Virus record (IMG/VR): IMGVR_UViG_3300030060_000625
Span: 1-53,690 of that record
Length of the DNA: 53,690 nt
Reading direction: 5' to 3' (one strand)
DNA from: a virus
Part shown: one piece after another, positions 13,405 through 44,463 of the stretch
How positions within the stretch are numbered: position 1 is the first letter of the stretch
Layout of the letters: each line of letters begins with the position of its first letter
The notes under the pieces: generated by a model
The model's input: the letters and a program-made list of their open reading frames with translations, nothing else
What the model was told of the DNA's origin: nothing
Databases searched by the model: none
Made by a program: the position numbers and the translations under genes

Positions 13405-14043
13405 CTATTTACCCCATTCTTTCTTCAGGTAATTCTGTACAAGAACAGATTTGGTAAAAATTTGCGGTGCTTCTTTATTCTGTGATAAAAATTGATTTAC
13501 CTCATATAGATTTTTTAGTATGAAATATTGTTGATACGAAATATTAGAAGACATCCAACCTAGTATGTTTGTTCTAACTCCAGAGGTTACTTTTGTAACA
13601 CCGTGGGGATACGTGATAGGAAAGATAGCTGCTTGCCCCATCTCCAGTTTTCTAGAAATAACGCCCAACTCTGTTTCAAAGAATATCTCTCCACCTTCAT
13701 AGTTGTCATCCAGATTAATAGTAAAACCATAGTCAAAGAAGATATTATTGGATTTTGGACTTGCTTTAAAATTGTCAACATGAAGATTGTAGTAGTCTCC
13801 TTCTTCGTATCTGTTATAATAATTTACTGAAACTCTGTTGGGACAATACACTGTATCAACGTAGTGTGTGTCGTACATTTTAGAGATAATCAGTTTGCGT
13901 ACTTCATCTGGTACACTCTGTGATTCTTTGTTTTTCTTGATACCTGATATTGGTTGCGTTTCGTTACCGTCACCAAAAGTATCTTTAGTAATTTCATTGT
14001 AGCAGAAATCTGCTTCTTCTTTATTGAGTAGCTGTATAAACAT
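13405..14043 (-). CDS. 2-oxoglutarate/Fe(II)-dependent oxygenase
   Basis: A 212-residue protein of the prolyl-4-hydroxylase / PKHD type. The iron-binding facial triad is visible: H88 and D90 in YNLHVDN, and H147 in YPHGV. R157 in SGVRTNILGW is placed to bind 2-oxoglutarate. The strands between them (FTINLDDNYEGGEIFF) are typical of the double-stranded beta-helix core. All four key residues are present, so it should be active. Members hydroxylate amino acid side chains or nucleobases; the substrate here is not known. It is encoded among capsid genes, so modification of a virion protein is one possibility. Marine phages often carry such genes. Confidence 0.9.
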   Translation of the reverse strand: MFIQLLNKEEADFCYNEITKDTFGDGNETQPISGIKKNKESQSVPDEVRKLIISKMYDTHYVDTVYCPNRVSVNYYNRYEEGDYYNLHVDNFKASPKSNNIFFDYGFTINLDDNYEGGEIFFETELGVISRKLEMGQAAIFPITYPHGVTKVTSGVRTNILGWMSSNISYQQYFILKNLYEVNQFLSQNKEAPQIFTKSVLVQNYLKKEWGK

Positions 14044-29031: not shown

Positions 29032-29059
29032 ATTATAACGTTGTATACGGGTTTGTCAA
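29032..29059 (-). promoter_or_regulatory. Leftward late promoter, perfect sigma70 consensus
   Basis: On the leftward strand TTGACA (29059-29054) and TATAAT (29037-29032) are separated by 16 bp; both boxes match the bacterial sigma70 consensus exactly. It points to terS and the structural genes, and no phage RNA polymerase gene is present, so host polymerase would use it. The leader to terS is about 350 bases. Confidence 0.8.
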
Positions 29060-29070
29060 GAAAAAAATGC

Positions 29071-29098
29071 TTGACAGATTGCTCTGGAGCATTATAAT
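29071..29098 (+). promoter_or_regulatory. Rightward promoter, perfect sigma70 consensus, facing gene-free DNA
   Basis: TTGACA (29071-29076), 16 bp, TATAAT (29093-29098): a perfect promoter on the other strand, with its -35 box only 11 bp from that of the leftward promoter. Downstream to the right there is no supported rightward gene, only about 420 bases of non-coding DNA and then leftward genes. It shares TGCTTGACAG with two early promoters. Its product would be a non-coding or antisense RNA. Confidence 0.75.
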
Positions 29099-29158: not shown

Positions 29159-29520
29159 CAAATAGGTTAACAAAGGTTAATATCGCTAAAAAAATATAAA
29201 AAATATAGCGGCATTGTATATACTAGTACGGGGGGGTGTAGTGGCCCATGCGCGCCCGTAGGCCAAAATCCCGCACACTCCTTCGGCGATGTCACCTAAA
29301 TCAATATAACTGTGTAAAGGTAAAACCCAGCCTTGCTGTAGCATGTCGGTGTAGTTTCCGTCACGTTACGCACCCGCGCGTATACGATAAGCTGACAAGT
29401 TGTAGGAAAAACAGACCTGTCGAGGGCAGGGGGGCGGTACATTTGCAACCATGCCAATAACTATACTCCCCTGTCCATTCAATCATTTATCGGGTTATTG
29501 CTACCAGTTCACGCACTCCC
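29159..29520. other. Non-coding control region; candidate small RNA, origin or packaging site
   Basis: No supportable gene lies here. The left end is very AT-rich, with CGCTA and TAGCG flanking a 17-base A/T run (about 29184-29210). It then changes abruptly to a G-rich run of seven Gs near 29231 and a GC-rich segment. A rightward frame of 70 codons exists, but its product is Arg/Cys-rich and unlike neighbours. A degenerate copy of the phage's GCTGACAA element lies near 29388. An easily melted segment beside a perfect rightward promoter is compatible with an origin or a transcribed small RNA. None of this is proven. Confidence 0.35.
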
Positions 29521-29552
29521 AAAAAAGAACCCCATAGCGTGAACTATGGGGT
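29521..29552 (-). terminator. Intrinsic terminator of the early leftward operon
   Basis: A perfect 9-bp stem (ACCCCATAG pairing with CTATGGGGT, 29529-29537 and 29544-29552) with a six-base loop is followed on the leftward strand by TTCTTTTTT. It stands directly after the last early gene and before the late promoters, separating the two leftward units. Confidence 0.85.
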
Positions 29553-29579
29553 CAAGGTTCAGGGAGGTATTCGGTAACG

Positions 29580-29678
29580 TTAGAAGGCGAATATAATGTT
29601 GTTGGTTGCTGTAATTATGCTAATGACTACCCCTGCCAGACAGAGGCCAATCAGTGAATAAAAGAGTTTATTCTGCAT
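29580..29678 (-). CDS. Tiny single-helix membrane peptide, 32 aa
   Basis: A 32-residue frame starting with an ATG inside the last codons of the gene upstream (11-base overlap) and ending 28 bases before the terminator stem. After MQNKLFY it is almost entirely hydrophobic (SLIGLCLAGVVISIITA), one transmembrane helix. It fills the gap exactly, and two similar tiny peptides occur in the same operon. The function is unknown. Confidence 0.55.
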   Translation of the reverse strand: MQNKLFYSLIGLCLAGVVISIITATNNIIFAF

Positions 29679-30373: not shown

Positions 30374-30457
30374 TTACGCGAAGAATACGAACAATGCAAC
30401 CAATATTACGGCTACAACGCCTAGCTTGTATATGCCAAGCACTAGTTCATAGATCAT
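30374..30457 (-). CDS. Tiny single-helix membrane peptide, 27 aa
   Basis: A 27-residue frame whose ATG overlaps the TGA of the DUF932 gene (ATGA). It is nearly all hydrophobic (LGVVAVILVALFVFFA at the C-terminus), a single membrane helix. The coupled start and lack of any other use of this stretch support it. The function is unknown. Confidence 0.55.
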   Translation of the reverse strand: MIYELVLGIYKLGVVAVILVALFVFFA

Positions 30458-31575
30458 GCGGCTACCAGTTCCTTGGCTTTTTCCAGGGCAATGGTTTTTG
30501 TATCTCTACCCATGCCACCATAAAATGCCTTCTCTAATCTATGGTCTGGACCGTGGTCACGCACTGGCTTGTGATCAGTCATGTAGGTTACCGTATTGAA
30601 GGCACCCCACAATGTCCCCTTGGCACTCTTCATGTCCCAGCCATAGTTGACGGCTGCGGAGGGAGCCTCAATCAATTCGGGATCGACCTCGATCTCCTCT
30701 AGGCTTTTACCTGCCATCAATGCCTCCACTTGCTCCTGCAATTTGGCAATGGTGACATCTTTGGTTTCTTTGCGCTTAGTCGCCGCTGGATTAAACTCTT
30801 GGCCACGGAAATATGCCATTGCCTTCCTGACACCTTCAGAGTGAATCACCTTGCCGCTGCTGTCGGTGCGTTCCTTGCCACTAAACACGGAGCGGAAAAA
30901 GTCTAGTTCCTCTTCTCCCGTCAGAACCTTCTTGGCCATTGCCTTGGCCAGTTCCTCGAACTCTCCGAAGTTTTGTGAACTAACACCAAGCGCGACCTTC
31001 AATGCCTCTGCATCGAATACGGCACGATGGTTGTGCGTCACGATGTCGTCAGCCTGTGACATGGCCAGCCGCATGGTATTGGCACAGACAACACGCACGG
31101 GTGTATTCAATGCGCTGTTGCTGTTCTTGCCAGTATGCGAGATTGTGAACAACAGATTGTTAACCACCTCGTCATCTTTACCCAGCATGAAGCCCTCTTT
31201 AGTCGTGGCCATGCACCACACTTTACGGCCACCAAACAAGCTGCCAGCGGTGTGCAAATACATCGAACCATCATCAATGAAGCTCTGAAAGAAATCGAAC
31301 AATTCGGTGTTCTGCACTGGCTTATAATCACCAGCAACATATTCTCCCAGAATTGCGCCATCAGATAAGCGCTCGATAAAATGGCTGTTCTCAATCGGCT
31401 CACTAGGATGATGCGAGTGCGTGGGCGGGTAGTGGTTCTGTGTCAATGCCACCTCCCAATCACATCCCGCTGCTGCCATCATCTCTGCAGGGGTCATCTC
31501 ATTGCTAACAGGATTTCCAAGACCGTGCCAAGGTACTTCATTGGCGAAGGCCATCGTTTCAACTTCATGAGACAT
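30454..31575 (-). CDS. DUF932 family (phage/plasmid-like) protein
   Basis: A 373-residue protein of the DUF932 family, also known as the phage/plasmid-like TIGR03299 group. The family opening MAFANEVPWHGLGNPVSN is clear. So are the central segment (LLFTISHTGKNSNSALNTPV followed by RVVCANTMRLAM) and the C-terminal block GTLWGAFNTVTYMTDHKPVR. I chose the ATG at 31575 because it follows GAAAGGAAAG at normal spacing. The family is widespread on phages and plasmids; its biochemical role is not settled. The codon use and GC content of this gene and the two after it look higher than in the neighbours, suggesting separate acquisition. Confidence 0.9.
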   Translation of the reverse strand: MSHEVETMAFANEVPWHGLGNPVSNEMTPAEMMAAAGCDWEVALTQNHYPPTHSHHPSEPIENSHFIERLSDGAILGEYVAGDYKPVQNTELFDFFQSFIDDGSMYLHTAGSLFGGRKVWCMATTKEGFMLGKDDEVVNNLLFTISHTGKNSNSALNTPVRVVCANTMRLAMSQADDIVTHNHRAVFDAEALKVALGVSSQNFGEFEELAKAMAKKVLTGEEELDFFRSVFSGKERTDSSGKVIHSEGVRKAMAYFRGQEFNPAATKRKETKDVTIAKLQEQVEALMAGKSLEEIEVDPELIEAPSAAVNYGWDMKSAKGTLWGAFNTVTYMTDHKPVRDHGPDHRLEKAFYGGMGRDTKTIALEKAKELVAA

Positions 31576-31590
31576 ATTCTTTCCTTTCAT

Positions 31591-31840
31591 ATGTCGGTCA
31601 CGGCATAATTGCCAGCAACCAATTTAATGGCTGGAGAATCCTTGTCAATAAATTTTATTAGATTGTCACGTTCTAGGCTTGGCTTATCGTGTTGCAAGCG
31701 GAGCGGAGCGAGGCGGCGGCGGCGACCGAGAAGCGGCGACGGAGCGAAACACCGACCGACCCGACTACGGCATCGCTCTGTGTTACGCCCCGCCCCATAA
31801 TAAAGTAATAGGCTGACAATTTTGTATTAGGCTGACAATT
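31591..31840. other. Gene-free segment with a GC-rich block
   Basis: No supported gene lies between the DUF932 gene and the next one. At 31697-31797 it holds a sharply GC-rich purine-biased block with repeated GGAGCG and two copies of GCGGCGAC, quite unlike the AT-rich surroundings. Three copies of the GGCTGACAATTT element follow. A leftward TTGACA is present near 31645 but without a convincing -10 box. Confidence 0.6.
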
Positions 31841-31866
31841 TTATTTTGTAATGGGCTGACAATTTT
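31811..31866. repeat. Cluster of three GGCTGACAATTTT elements
   Basis: Identical 13-base elements start at 31811, 31830 and 31854 (spacing 19 and 24 bp). The last lies inside the end of a leftward gene. The same element forms a five-copy phased array at 34450-34546. It is a likely binding site for a phage or host DNA-binding protein. Confidence 0.75.
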
Positions 31867-32035
31867 GTAACTCACCTTCAATAATTTCCCAGGAAAATTC
31901 ATATGCGGCATCCCAATTTAACCAGCCCTCATGATCACATAAATTGTCAGCCATAAGTTTAGCCTGATGATTTTGTGAAGGTTCTAGATCTAAATCTAAA
32001 TATAATTGTATCATGTCTTTAGTCCAGCTTTGCAT
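31841..32035 (-). CDS. Small acidic early protein, 64 aa
   Basis: A 64-residue protein with Trp- and Asp-rich blocks (MQSWTKDMIQLYLDLDLEPS, EGWLNWDAAYEFSWEIIEGE). I placed the start at the ATG at 32035, overlapping the end of the gene upstream; a Met seven codons later is possible. Two copies of the phage repeat element lie inside it on opposite strands, which constrains its sequence. The function is unknown. Confidence 0.6.
   Translation of the reverse strand: MQSWTKDMIQLYLDLDLEPSQNHQAKLMADNLCDHEGWLNWDAAYEFSWEIIEGELQNCQPITK
31941..31952. repeat. Inverted copy of the GGCTGACAATTT element
   Basis: AAATTGTCAGCC, the exact complement of the element, lies inside the 64-residue gene. It is read there as Met-Ala-Asp-Asn-Leu, while the nearby copy at 31854 is read on the opposite strand in a different phase. 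The conservation is therefore at DNA level. Confidence 0.65.
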
Positions 32036-32279
32036 CAATCCAGCGTCTAGCTTCTTCTAGCGCATCTTGTAATGATTCAAAATCATACCACCTATCTATA
32101 ACCTCAATCTCTTGCTGGCTTGCCACATTACGTATTACGGCAACCTCTCTAGTCTCGTAGAGTTTCTTGAGATTATCGGAGTTACGCTCCATCGTGCTGT
32201 GAACGTTAGAGGTATGATGGCAGATAGAAACAGTCATTCCTCTGTAGGTGCTGTGGATTAGATTATTACTATGTTCCAT
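32019..32279 (-). CDS. Small early protein, 86 aa
   Basis: An 86-residue protein with a strong ribosome site (AAGGAGAATAGCA before the ATG at 32279). The N-terminal half is beta-like and His/Ser-rich (TYRGMTVSICHHTSNVHSTM), and the C-terminal half is a charged helix (FESLQDALEEARRWIDAKLD). It overlaps the next gene. No family recognised. Confidence 0.75.
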   Translation of the reverse strand: MEHSNNLIHSTYRGMTVSICHHTSNVHSTMERNSDNLKKLYETREVAVIRNVASQQEIEVIDRWYDFESLQDALEEARRWIDAKLD

Positions 32280-33209: not shown

Positions 33210-33477
33210 TGTACTTTCCTTTCCTTGGTAGTTTGTATTGAAATAGTTTTTCGTCCCTAAGACGTAAGAAGTCAACAGACTGATCGTATGATTTCTTAGA
33301 GACAAGTTGTATTGCTCTCTCAAGCAATAGCATATCTGAGGTATCATTCCTATAAACACGTTTGAAATCTTCCCAAGATAACGGTTTAATATTAACTTCT
33401 TTCATTACACTCACATGTTCGTTCCAAAGACGTTTTCTCCTAGTGACTTGTCTAAGTATCTTTGCTTGCTCTAGCAT
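33202..33477 (-). CDS. Small basic helical early protein, 91 aa
   Basis: A 91-residue basic protein (MLEQAKILRQVTRRKRLWNE, then SWEDFKRVYRNDTSDMLLLE). The start at 33477 follows AGGAGAGACAAA, a strong ribosome site, and overlaps the end of the previous gene by 26 bases. It is predicted mostly helical and could bind nucleic acid. No family recognised. Confidence 0.7.
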   Translation of the reverse strand: MLEQAKILRQVTRRKRLWNEHVSVMKEVNIKPLSWEDFKRVYRNDTSDMLLLERAIQLVSKKSYDQSVDFLRLRDEKLFQYKLPRKGKYSG

Positions 33478-34204
33478 TTTGTCTCTCCTGTAATCCTGCA
33501 ACCCTAGCAACTAACACATCAACATTGCAATCATCGCAGCAGCGACCTTCTGCAAGAGGCCACGGATTGTTACCATAACCTTTAAACGTTTCTTTGCAAA
33601 GACTGCAATCATATGTCTTAATAGATACAGGCCACCACTTAGGCTCTGGTCTTCTAGTCCAAACGGCAAAATCTTTTTTCTCTCCAATGTAGTATCTGCG
33701 GTAGGCATCAACTACATCATAAAAAGATTGCTGGTTTAAACGCTTACGTCGAACCGTTGCATCCTCTGCAAGTTCGATCCAACTATCTTTTGTTTTAGTA
33801 AACCTGTTCTTATACTTATCAGGCATACACATAGGCGGCACAGTTCGTCCTGTCTCTGTACCATTACAAATATTCTCAGGCACTTTTTGCAAAGCATCTA
33901 AGATACCTTTAGATTGAGTGGCGTGTACTTTGTCGTAACGGTAGGTGTACTCGTTGCAGAGTTCTTTTAACAGACGGTACGTCCAAGCATAATTGAATTG
34001 ATTTTCACGAACCCATTTCGTCATAGGGTGGTTGGCATACGCTGTCTTGTAAAGTCCCATTGCATCTGCTGCAACATCACCATCTAATAATCGGTGAGCG
34101 GTACACATCATTTGCGTTGTTTCAAGAACCATCTTGACCACATGCTTATCACAGTGATCTAATACTGCAAGCTCTGGGTTAGTTGAAAGAAAGAAGATAT
34201 TCAT
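33452..34204 (-). CDS. Pyr_excise-like protein with C-terminal zinc finger, 250 aa
   Basis: The first 195 residues match a phage family often labelled pyrimidine-dimer glycosylase-like. Visible blocks are MNIFFLSTNPELAVLDHCDK, HVVKMVLETTQMMCTAHRLL, NHPMTKWVRE, LCNEYTYRYDKVHA, YRRYYIGEKKDFAVWTRRPE and a closing PKWWP. The repair activity is by family label only and has not, to my knowledge, been shown for this branch. The last 50 residues add a Cys-rich finger (CSLCKETFKGYG, GRCCDDC) that most members would not need. It is preceded by a good sigma70-type promoter. Confidence 0.7.
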   Translation of the reverse strand: MNIFFLSTNPELAVLDHCDKHVVKMVLETTQMMCTAHRLLDGDVAADAMGLYKTAYANHPMTKWVRENQFNYAWTYRLLKELCNEYTYRYDKVHATQSKGILDALQKVPENICNGTETGRTVPPMCMPDKYKNRFTKTKDSWIELAEDATVRRKRLNQQSFYDVVDAYRRYYIGEKKDFAVWTRRPEPKWWPVSIKTYDCSLCKETFKGYGNNPWPLAEGRCCDDCNVDVLVARVAGLQERQNARASKDT

Positions 34205-34259: not shown

Positions 34260-34287
34260 ATTATGCACACTATAAATACCCTGTCAA
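34260..34287 (-). promoter_or_regulatory. Early leftward promoter
   Basis: Leftward TTGACA (34287-34282), 16 bp, CATAAT (34265-34260): a strong sigma70-type promoter about 55 bases before the 250-residue gene. It is set in the decamer TGCTTGACAG shared with the promoters at 29071 and 35571. A DnaA-box-like TTATGCACA overlaps the -10 box. Confidence 0.75.
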
Positions 34288-34312
34288 GCACTTTTATTAT
34301 AACGTTACATTA

Positions 34313-34549
34313 CTACTTCTTACTTTCTTTTGTTGCAATACGTTGTAGACTGTCGTTCAATCTTTTAATTCTTCTGTAAGCGTCTTGCAAGTCACTCTGA
34401 AGATTGTAAACGTTATCACGCAAGACACGCAACTCATCATAGTCAGACTGGCTGACAATTTTCTTTTCAGGGCTGACAATTTGTTTTTTAGGGCTGACAA
34501 TTTGTTTTATGCGGCTGACAAAATTCTTTATGAGGCTGACAATTTTCAT
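34313..34549 (-). CDS. Coiled-coil protein whose N-terminus is encoded by the phased repeat array, 78 aa
   Basis: A 78-residue protein. Residues 1-35 consist of repeats of K-x-I/F-V-S at seven-residue spacing (KIVSLIK, IKQIVSP, KQIVSPEKK), because the DNA here is a five-copy 21-bp repeat. Residues 36-78 form a regular coiled coil (DELRVLRDNVYNLQSDLQ). The ATG overlaps the stop of a tiny membrane peptide (ATGA) with no ribosome site of its own. The seven-residue period would itself make a heptad repeat. Either protein or DNA function could have driven the repeats. Confidence 0.65.
   Translation of the reverse strand: MKIVSLIKNFVSRIKQIVSPKKQIVSPEKKIVSQSDYDELRVLRDNVYNLQSDLQDAYRRIKRLNDSLQRIATKESKK
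34450..34546. repeat. Five-copy phased array of the GGCTGACAATTT element
   Basis: Copies start at 34450, 34471, 34492, 34513 and 34534: an exact 21-bp period, equal to two turns of B-DNA. Four share GGCTGACAATTT; the copy at 34513 reads GGCTGACAAAATT. A-rich and T-rich spacers follow each copy. Face-phased identical sites are typical of iterons or of operators for a cooperative binder. Confidence 0.85.
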
Positions 34550-35571: not shown

Positions 35572-35592
35572 GCATTTATTGAATAAAAAATC

Positions 35593-35657
35593 TTACCAGT
35601 TATACCTCACTGTAGGCACTGAATAGTAAAATGTTACCAGTTATACCTCACTCTAGG
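35593..35657. repeat. Two copies of a 24-bp direct repeat before DNA polymerase
   Basis: A 24-base sequence beginning TTACCAGTTATACCTCACT and ending TAGG occurs at 35593-35616 and 35634-35657, 41 bp apart, differing at one base. The second copy ends 11 bases before the polymerase ATG. Each copy carries a -10-like TTATAC. It is a likely operator, promoter element or origin site for the replication operon. Confidence 0.8.
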
Positions 35658-42343: not shown

Positions 42344-42569
42344 TCCCGTCAACAGCCCAGAACATTACAATAAGCTTGATGTTGAGGCTATAGATTTAAT
42401 AGAGATGTCTATGACGAGGAATGAGTTTTTAGGATATTTAAAAGGTAACGTGTTAAAGTATATAATTAGATACAGGCACAAAGGCAAAGCCGCAGAGGAC
42501 TTAGGAAAGTGCGTATGGTATCTTACGAGGTTAAAGGATAGAGTAGAAGATGCAAAACCTACCAACTGA
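42324..42569 (+). CDS. DUF3310 family protein, 81 aa
   Basis: An 81-residue member of DUF3310, a small family widespread in phages. The family core is clear: DPVNSPEHYNKLDVEAIDLI, then GYLKGNVLKYIIRYRHKGKA and EDLGKCVWYLTRLKDR. I chose the ATG at 42324, with GAGG at proper distance, over the one at 42318. Some members are labelled nucleotide kinase, but the role is not established. It overlaps NrdJ, consistent with nucleotide metabolism. Confidence 0.9.
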   Translation: MTTEEHDPVNSPEHYNKLDVEAIDLIEMSMTRNEFLGYLKGNVLKYIIRYRHKGKAAEDLGKCVWYLTRLKDRVEDAKPTN

Positions 42570-44463
42570 TTATCAAATGTTTATTCACAAGAGCCGCTAT
42601 GCACGTTGGCTTGACAGTGAACAACGCAGGGAAACATGGGAAGAGACTGTAACACGGTTTACAGACTACATGGTAGAACACATTAAGTTTGTGTGTGATG
42701 TTGATCTGTCTCAGTCTCCACACATGAAAGCTGTGAAGTCAGCGATACTAAATTTAGAGATCATGCCATCTATGCGATCTCTTATGACTGCAGGTCCAGC
42801 GTTGAAACGTGAAAACATTGCAGGATACAATTGCTCGTATATTCCTATTGATAATCCTAGATCATTTGACGAAGTTCTTTACATTCTTATGAACGGCACT
42901 GGCGTAGGTTTTTCTGTGGAACGTACATACATAGAGAACCTGCCGACCATACCTGACGTTGAGTTTGAAGAGACAGAGGACGTTATTAGTGTAGCTGACT
43001 CAAAAGAAGGTTGGGCAAGAAGCTTCCGTGACTTGATAGGATACTTGTATACTAACAGAATACCTAAGATTGATATGTCTAAGGTGCGTCCTGCAGGTGC
43101 AAGGTTGAAGACTTTTGGTGGCAGAGCTTCAGGTCCAGAACCACTACAAGATTTGTTTGACTTCACGATAAGGGTGTTTCAAGATGCTAAAGGACGTAAA
43201 CTATCCTCCATCGAATGTCATGATATTGTGTGTAAGACAGGTGAGGTGGTGGTTGTTGGTGGCGTTAGGCGTTCCGCTCTTTTATCTCTCAGTAATCTTA
43301 GTGATGATAGGATGCGGTCTGCTAAGTCTGGCAATTGGTGGTCTATTAACCCTCATAGAGCTTTGGCAAACAACTCTGTTGCTTATACACAAACTCCTGA
43401 CCCGTCTGCGTTCATGAAAGAATGGCTTTCGTTATATGAAAGTAAGTCTGGAGAGCGCGGTATATTTAACAGGACGGCTGCTCAAGGCAAAGCGGTGGCT
43501 AACGGACGTAGGGAAGAGTCTGACTTTGGCACGAACCCATGCAGTGAGATTATTCTACGTCCCAATCAATTCTGTAACCTATCTGAGGTTGTATGTAGAT
43601 CAGATGACACTGCAAAGTCATTAGAACGTAAGGCAGAGCTTGCTGCTATTCTTGGAACATTGCAGTCTACCCTTACAGATTTTAAGTATCTACGTACACG
43701 CTGGAAGAACAATACAGAGGAAGAACGTTTACTAGGTGTGTCTCTTACAGGCATCATGGATTGCAAGTACCTTAATGTAACATCGCATCCTGAACGTCTA
43801 ACTAAATTGAGAGATACAGTAGTACATACTAACAAGAAGTGGTCCGATAAGTTAGGTATACCTCAGTCTACCGCCACGACTTGTGTGAAGCCATCTGGCA
43901 CTGTTAGTCAACTTACTAATGCTGCTAGTGGTATTCATGCTCGACACGCCCCGTATTATGTCAGAACGGTGCGTGGGGATGTTAAAGATCCGTTAACTAG
44001 GTTCCTAATGGACAGTAACATTCCTAATGAACCTGACTTTAACAGTCCGAACAACACGGTGGTTTTTTCCTTTCCTTTCAAATCACCTGTTGCTGCCATC
44101 TGTCGGACTGATATGAAGGCTCTGGAGCAACTGCACCTGTGGAAACACTACAGCGAACACTGGTGCGAACATAAACCTTCTATTACGGTAAGTGTTAAAG
44201 AGCATGAATGGATGGAAGTAGGAAACTGGTGCTACGAAAACTTTGATGAACTGAGTGGTATCAGTTTCCTACCCTTCTCTGATCACAGCTATAGGCAAGC
44301 ACCGTATCAAGACTGTAGTAAAGAAGAATACGACAAGCTTGTTACTGAAATGCCAAAGGCTATTGATTGGAAAACTTTTGATAATTATGAAAAAGAGGAC
44401 AACACCAAAGCATCACAAGAATTAGCTTGTACGGGAGAGGTGTGCGAAGTAGTAGATATATGA
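42550..44463 (+). CDS. nrdJ: Adenosylcobalamin-dependent (class II, monomeric) ribonucleotide reductase
   Basis: A 637-residue enzyme that makes deoxynucleoside triphosphates or diphosphates for phage DNA. By comparison with the Lactobacillus enzyme, C95 (GYNCSYIP) and C342 (QFCNLSEVV) form the reducing pair. C331 and E333 in TNPCSEIIL are the thiyl Cys and its neighbour, separated from C342 by the expected 11 residues. The C-terminal ACTGEVCEV (C627/C632) is the swinging reducing pair. The allosteric or cobalamin loop region shows GGRASGPEPLQDL. It needs B12 but no oxygen, so it depends on the host's cobalamin. It is common in marine phages. Confidence 0.96.
   Translation: MQNLPTDYQMFIHKSRYARWLDSEQRRETWEETVTRFTDYMVEHIKFVCDVDLSQSPHMKAVKSAILNLEIMPSMRSLMTAGPALKRENIAGYNCSYIPIDNPRSFDEVLYILMNGTGVGFSVERTYIENLPTIPDVEFEETEDVISVADSKEGWARSFRDLIGYLYTNRIPKIDMSKVRPAGARLKTFGGRASGPEPLQDLFDFTIRVFQDAKGRKLSSIECHDIVCKTGEVVVVGGVRRSALLSLSNLSDDRMRSAKSGNWWSINPHRALANNSVAYTQTPDPSAFMKEWLSLYESKSGERGIFNRTAAQGKAVANGRREESDFGTNPCSEIILRPNQFCNLSEVVCRSDDTAKSLERKAELAAILGTLQSTLTDFKYLRTRWKNNTEEERLLGVSLTGIMDCKYLNVTSHPERLTKLRDTVVHTNKKWSDKLGIPQSTATTCVKPSGTVSQLTNAASGIHARHAPYYVRTVRGDVKDPLTRFLMDSNIPNEPDFNSPNNTVVFSFPFKSPVAAICRTDMKALEQLHLWKHYSEHWCEHKPSITVSVKEHEWMEVGNWCYENFDELSGISFLPFSDHSYRQAPYQDCSKEEYDKLVTEMPKAIDWKTFDNYEKEDNTKASQELACTGEVCEVVDI

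Follow-up and report, generated by a model that had tools for sequence, protein, structure and literature searches.

Directional repeat arrays paired with promoters in the early region of a marine phage and its relatives

Two clusters of a short repeat in the window

The window analysed here is an IMG/VR virus record of 53,690 nucleotides, from a clade of uncultivated marine phages. Judged by its DNA polymerase, the closest named phages are the Pelagibacter phages HTVC103P, HTVC104P and HTVC115P (41-43% identity). It carries two clusters of a 13-base repeat, array A and array B, which are 2584 bp apart and are each followed by a leftward promoter (Table 1). One copy of array A, at 34513, has two mismatches to the 13-mer. 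In array B, the third copy lies in the 3' end of the ORF at 31841-32038 (-) and the first copy lies outside that ORF.

Table 1. Repeat copies, promoters and genes at the two clusters
Feature	Position	Strand	Remarks
Array B copy 1, GGCTGACAATTTT	31811..31823	+	Exact match; reads AAAATTGTCAGCC on the leftward transcript strand
Array B copy 2, exact 13-mer	31830..31842	+	Touches the stop codon of ORF 31841-32038
Array B copy 3, exact 13-mer	31854..31866	+	Codes for the C-terminal ...QNCQP... of ORF 31841-32038
Inverted copy, GGCTGACAATTTA	31940..31952	-	In ORF 31841-32038; encodes A-D-N-L
Small gene, 65 aa	31841..32038	-	Present here; 3' end meets array B, reading into copy 3 to reach its stop
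Array A, five copies, 21-bp spacing	34450, 34471, 34492, 34513, 34534 (34450..34546)	+	Inside the start of ORF 34313-34549
78-aa ORF	34313..34549	-	N-terminus MKIVSLIKNFVSRIKQIVSPKKQIVSPEKKIVSQ encoded by array A; rest looks coiled-coil-like
Promoter P2, TTGACA-N16-CATAAT	34260..34287	-	164 bp downstream of array A, before gene 33452-34204
A-tract block, AATAAAAGTGC	34288..34298	-	Adjoins the -35 of P2
Promoter P3, TTGACA-N16-TAAATT	31621..31648	-	164 bp downstream of array B, before the DUF932 gene
A-tract block, AATAAAATTTA	31649..31659	-	Adjoins the -35 of P3
DUF932 protein, PF06067, E=2e-40	30454..31590	-	First gene after P3

An earlier note on this DNA had reported the three copies of array B and the inverted copy as a second cluster of the element in array A, and we found all four where it had placed them. 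The 11-mer GCTGACAATTT is the commonest in the window: relative to a second-order Markov model, it occurs seven times on the + strand (0.016 expected) and once on the - strand (0.025 expected). When the window was scanned with the 13-mer, matches with no or one mismatch were confined to the two clusters and the inverted copy, so equally good matches are not spread at random through this DNA. A loose scan that allowed up to three mismatches returned 30 matches where 22 were expected and is uninformative. The original observation is thus confirmed, and the comparison with relatives described below shows it to be broader than first stated.

The inverted copy had been offered as evidence of conservation, a use for which it turned out to be weak. 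The gene that carries it is absent from the array-bearing relatives L006, L007 and L009, in which the next gene follows array B directly. Its homologue in L087 (63% identical) has A-N-D-L in place of A-D-N-L and lacks the word. Because of these two observations, the inverted copy is probably a coincidence of codons and not a member of the array, although an exact 12-mer would be expected by chance in the window only about 0.005 times, which leaves some probability to a functional role. The exact 11-mer was not found on the opposite strand in the records of 11 relatives checked, and a functional site or an arm of an RNA hairpin is an unlikely explanation for the inverted copy. The L087 homologue ends in IEGESQ and the window ORF reads IEGELQNCQPITK with its stop codon within the array, which makes array B the apparent point at which the gene joined.

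Conservation in related phages

Dozens of related contigs were recruited by their polymerase, their DUF932 protein and the repeat pattern. The window and 14 relatives together supplied 100 array copies. Their core on the leftward gene strand is AAATTGTCAGC, in which TTGTC is present in 100 of 100 copies and the flanks are mostly free. An array consists of 2-8 directional copies of this core, and all array copies in the window and the 14 relatives have a single orientation, along transcription. Among relatives, the two clusters are 1.2-3.1 kb apart. In more distant relatives the words have drifted (ACTATTTTGTCAA, AATTTTGTCAAC) and the two-cluster layout is retained. L031, whose polymerase is 65% identical, is without GCTGACAATTT but has two clusters of TTGACAAAATAGT, and L081 and L082 each have two clusters of AATTTTGTCAAC; in all three, strand and layout are unchanged and spacings are as small as 12 bases. 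A literature search for such arrays found no description of them. A host-encoded target was also considered and rejected, as a scan of genome contigs gave only seven scattered matches with no common context.

Across relatives the word is read as KIVS, KLSA or NCQ, and it also occurs in noncoding DNA. Since the same word is found in several frames and outside genes, it is the nucleotide word that is kept and not a peptide, and the proposal that the element is conserved independently of reading frame holds on this broader evidence. In the 78-aa ORF, for which we obtained weak profile matches only, the window and L009 are identical at 44 of 44 core positions, compared with 39 of 46 in the array spacers and 114 of 123 in the remaining gene. 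In four other relatives (L018, L020, L058 and L059), the product encoded by array A is a lysine-rich N-terminus (MKLSALKTKLSA...) belonging to small hydrophobic ORFs that resemble membrane proteins. These ORFs replace the coiled-coil-like ORF of the window, the part downstream of the array being swapped between lineages.

The 21-bp register of array A corresponds to seven codons. Copy spacings in relatives are 12, 14, 15, 16, 17, 19, 20, 24 and 25 bp, and within the AAATTGTCAGC group (the window and 14 relatives) they range from 15 to more than 25 bases. Over 13 lineages the spacings have a period of 3 (R 0.49-0.63) with little 10.5-bp periodicity (R 0.26-0.28). We therefore reject the helical phasing that had been ascribed to array A: its 21-bp phasing is codon periodicity, and helical stacking of a regulator is neither needed nor supported.

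Promoters downstream of the arrays

We scored sigma70-like sites downstream of the arrays; P2 and P3 came out as strong leftward promoters, and their distance of 164 bp is measured from where the nearest core ends. In the 53.7 kb there are two instances of the full promoter type, AATAAAA..TTGACA-N16-TAnnnT, both exactly 164 bp downstream of an array. Matches to AATAAA-TTGACA together with a -10 number two each in the window, L007 and L009, and an array stands upstream of every one of them, at -164 to -281. Of 21 non-redundant arrays, 11 are followed at 140-205 bp by a promoter with an exact TTGACA, against 0.58 expected, and the block AATAA(A/T)A before the -35 is common to these array-linked promoters. 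The exceptions to the pairing are L031 and array A of L081 and L082, which have a weak promoter or one at a distance of about 320-340 bp, and several B arrays with a degenerate -35 (TTGCAA, TTGATT or TTGATA). A conserved, single-orientation array is thus paired with one type of promoter, twice per genome. Taken by itself, the promoter block is not diagnostic: TAATAAAAGTnnTTGACA has 77 usable occurrences in the viral contigs scanned, and an array accompanies just four of these, all of them in this clade.

At all 13 loci with enough DNA to judge (the window, L006, L007, L009, L023, L025, L031, L054, L058, L059, L075, L081 and L082), array B precedes the start of the DUF932 gene, at a distance of about 220-290 bp; L075 has just two close copies. 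The sequence between array B and the DUF932 start is unconserved across these lineages, and no such word was found upstream of DUF932 in two unrelated phages. In neither interval from array to promoter did we find a terminator-like site on the leftward strand; the third leftward unit is followed by a terminator-like hairpin at 29553-29528. A C-rich, Rho-type terminator after the arrays was considered as well. By eye, the sequence is C-rich in the window, L006, L007, L009 and L081 and G-rich in L058 and L023, so such a terminator is not general.

Two further observations concern the DNA around these promoters. A stretch between array B and P3 (31690-31798) is GC-rich, nearly repetitive and C-rich on the leftward strand, and is variable in relatives; the GC content of the genome outside it is about 40%. 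Gene 33452-34204 (-) encodes a protein of the pyrimidine-dimer DNA glycosylase family (PF03013); in L023, L031 and L059 the Cys-rich C-terminal part of this protein has a small gene of its own.

A possible role at the boundaries of early transcription units

The arrays look like landing sites for a candidate regulator. A single sequence-specific factor would bind each copy as an asymmetric site; it is probably phage-encoded because the site drifts between phage lineages. Array, an interval of about 140-190 bp, and a leftward promoter of the sigma70 type whose TTGACA is preceded by an AATAAAA block would together form a duplicated regulatory module. Of the leftward promoters, the second follows array A and the third follows array B. 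Bound arrays would act in cis at the boundaries of successive early units (PL1 to P2 and P2 to P3), where they would stop or dampen transcription by RNA polymerase coming in from the preceding unit, or control the next promoter downstream, or do both. We give roughly even odds (about 0.5) to this reading, in which the arrays are stoperator-like directional binding arrays that control successive early transcription units. It retains two proposals of the earlier note, that two control loci bracket the early genes and, as probable, that one factor is common to both; looping between the loci found no direct support, and each cluster has its own downstream promoter.

The closest working analogue, given the strict orientation and the absence of a terminator hairpin between arrays and promoters, is the set of stoperators in cluster A mycobacteriophages such as L5 and TipsytheTRex. 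These are 13-bp asymmetric sites that lie between genes and at promoters (PMC9283540, PMC6550527). Their orientation follows transcription and reversal abolishes repression (PMC9283540), they are predominantly in one orientation in each genome (PMC6550527), and their motifs are similar but not identical in related phages (PMC9283540, PMC6550527). More than 20 sites are scattered over these temperate phage genomes and are bound by a known two-domain repressor (PMC9283540, PMC6550527). Our arrays likewise consist of a short asymmetric site in one orientation relative to transcription (100 copies). Unlike stoperators, they form tandem clusters at two promoters instead of being dispersed over the genome, and no repressor was found among the scanned proteins. 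We regard them as a new variety of directional operator-like array.

In searches of the early and small proteins against Pfam and PHROGs, we found no helix-turn-helix (HTH) or repressor family, and no repressor with an HTH plus a Stoperator domain. F3, with a weak WYL_2 (Sm-like) match, and F9 are widespread early proteins in the clade and were considered as a universal binder, but each is absent from some array-bearing phages, including L031. AlphaFold models of F24 and F9 (pLDDT 59 and 57) were too poor to interpret.

The failure to find a binder among the scanned proteins counts against stoperator-like control, as do several features of the arrays. At 160-255 bp upstream the sites are far for direct promoter control, the L031 and L081/L082 arrays noted above depart from the promoter pairing, and phage operons without an intrinsic terminator are not unusual. 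A single orientation also fits RNA equally well, and the least supported part of our reading is that the factor would act on double-stranded DNA and not on the transcript. More tentatively, we suggest a fuller scheme: early units would end in tandem directional sites that gate the entry of host RNA polymerase into the next unit, at the level of DNA or of nascent RNA, and each unit would restart from its own matched AATAAAA-TTGACA promoter. The site would drift together with a candidate phage factor, and the whole would be an undescribed system of lytic marine phages.

The main rival, which we regard as possible but rather unlikely, is an RNA element: the nascent leftward transcript would repeat AAAUUGUCAGC and be bound by an RNA-binding protein or pair with a small RNA, which would affect how the small ORF at array A is translated, antitermination, or the decay of early units at their 3' ends. 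It would account for the position of all array copies on the transcribed strand in every relative and for the many copies that overlap start or stop codons (ATGAAAATTGTCAGC, TAAAATTGTCAGC), and flexible spacing with little helical phase is also what is seen when single-stranded RNA is bound at multiple sites. However, neither array shows unusual folding (z -0.50 and +0.51) or an Rfam family match, the complementary 11-mer is encoded in none of the 11 relatives, and control of translation does not predict the pairing with promoters. TRAP binding sites and other multi-site RNA elements are tandem short transcript motifs with flexible spacing. The array motif differs from these in being longer and more specific, with a register of 12-25 nt.

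Iteron origins such as P4 ori and crr have directional short repeats in two separated clusters, and the arrays could by analogy be sites for a replication initiator. The repeats here are also short, asymmetric and direct, the clusters lie 1.2-3.1 kb apart near replication genes, and the cumulative GC skew has a minimum near 35.6-36 kb. We nevertheless consider this explanation unlikely: unlike iterons, each array is tied to a sigma70-type promoter, the repeats are not at whole helical turns (12-25 bp, R=0.28 at 10.5 bp), and the phage has a T7-type polymerase and a primase-helicase. No initiator family was recognised among the proteins scanned, many early genes being without assigned function.

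Classical repressor-operator loci joined by DNA looping are less probable again. In lambda, OL and OR are clusters of several sites each, about 2.4 kb apart in the early region, and the operators are near-palindromic and overlap promoters. Two multi-site clusters 2.6 kb apart recall this arrangement, but the array sites are asymmetric and in one orientation, the nearest copy is 164 bp from a -35, the distance between clusters is variable, and no repressor or integrase family was found among the proteins scanned. Least probable of all, and largely excluded by these data, is that a short repeat expanded neutrally or that xIVSxxK heptads form a coding repeat, without a function in DNA; this would fit the in-frame position of array A in the 78-aa ORF and the 3-base periodicity of the spacings, but not the occurrence of the word in other frames and in noncoding DNA, the unequal conservation of core and spacers, or the persistence of position and promoter pairing in diverged relatives.

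The conserved array-promoter module offers a precise, testable handle on the order of early gene expression in phages of this marine clade, which have a T7-type polymerase, as a bait sequence with which to fish out the regulator, and could serve as a diagnostic motif for early promoters in metagenomic phages. If the elongation-block reading is true, stoperator-like logic would extend beyond temperate mycobacteriophages.

Other features of these genomes

Two ~41-bp direct repeats (TTACCAGTTATACCTCACT...) lie at 35580-35657, directly upstream of the start of the DNA polymerase gene. In L044 (6246-6390), L047 (2495-2640) and L045 (163-280), perfect DnaA boxes (TTATCCACA) form an intergenic cluster adjoined by Fur-box-like sequences. 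We considered these repeats as counterparts of the arrays and set them aside as distinct, given the more distant lineage and the different layout.

The window also contains, at 29032-29098, two back-to-back perfect consensus sigma70 promoters (TTGACA-16-TATAAT; 29059 leftward and 29071 rightward), in a gene-poor region of about 1 kb before the terminase small subunit; this is possibly the late promoter. A sub-threshold Rfam match to the alphaproteobacterial suhB/mmgR sRNA at 29514-29582 (-) (E=0.063, 25 bits against a gathering threshold of 41) overlaps a terminator hairpin. Genes for a 2OG-Fe(II) oxygenase and a ribonucleotide reductase are located at 13405-14043 (-) and 42550-44463 (+), respectively.
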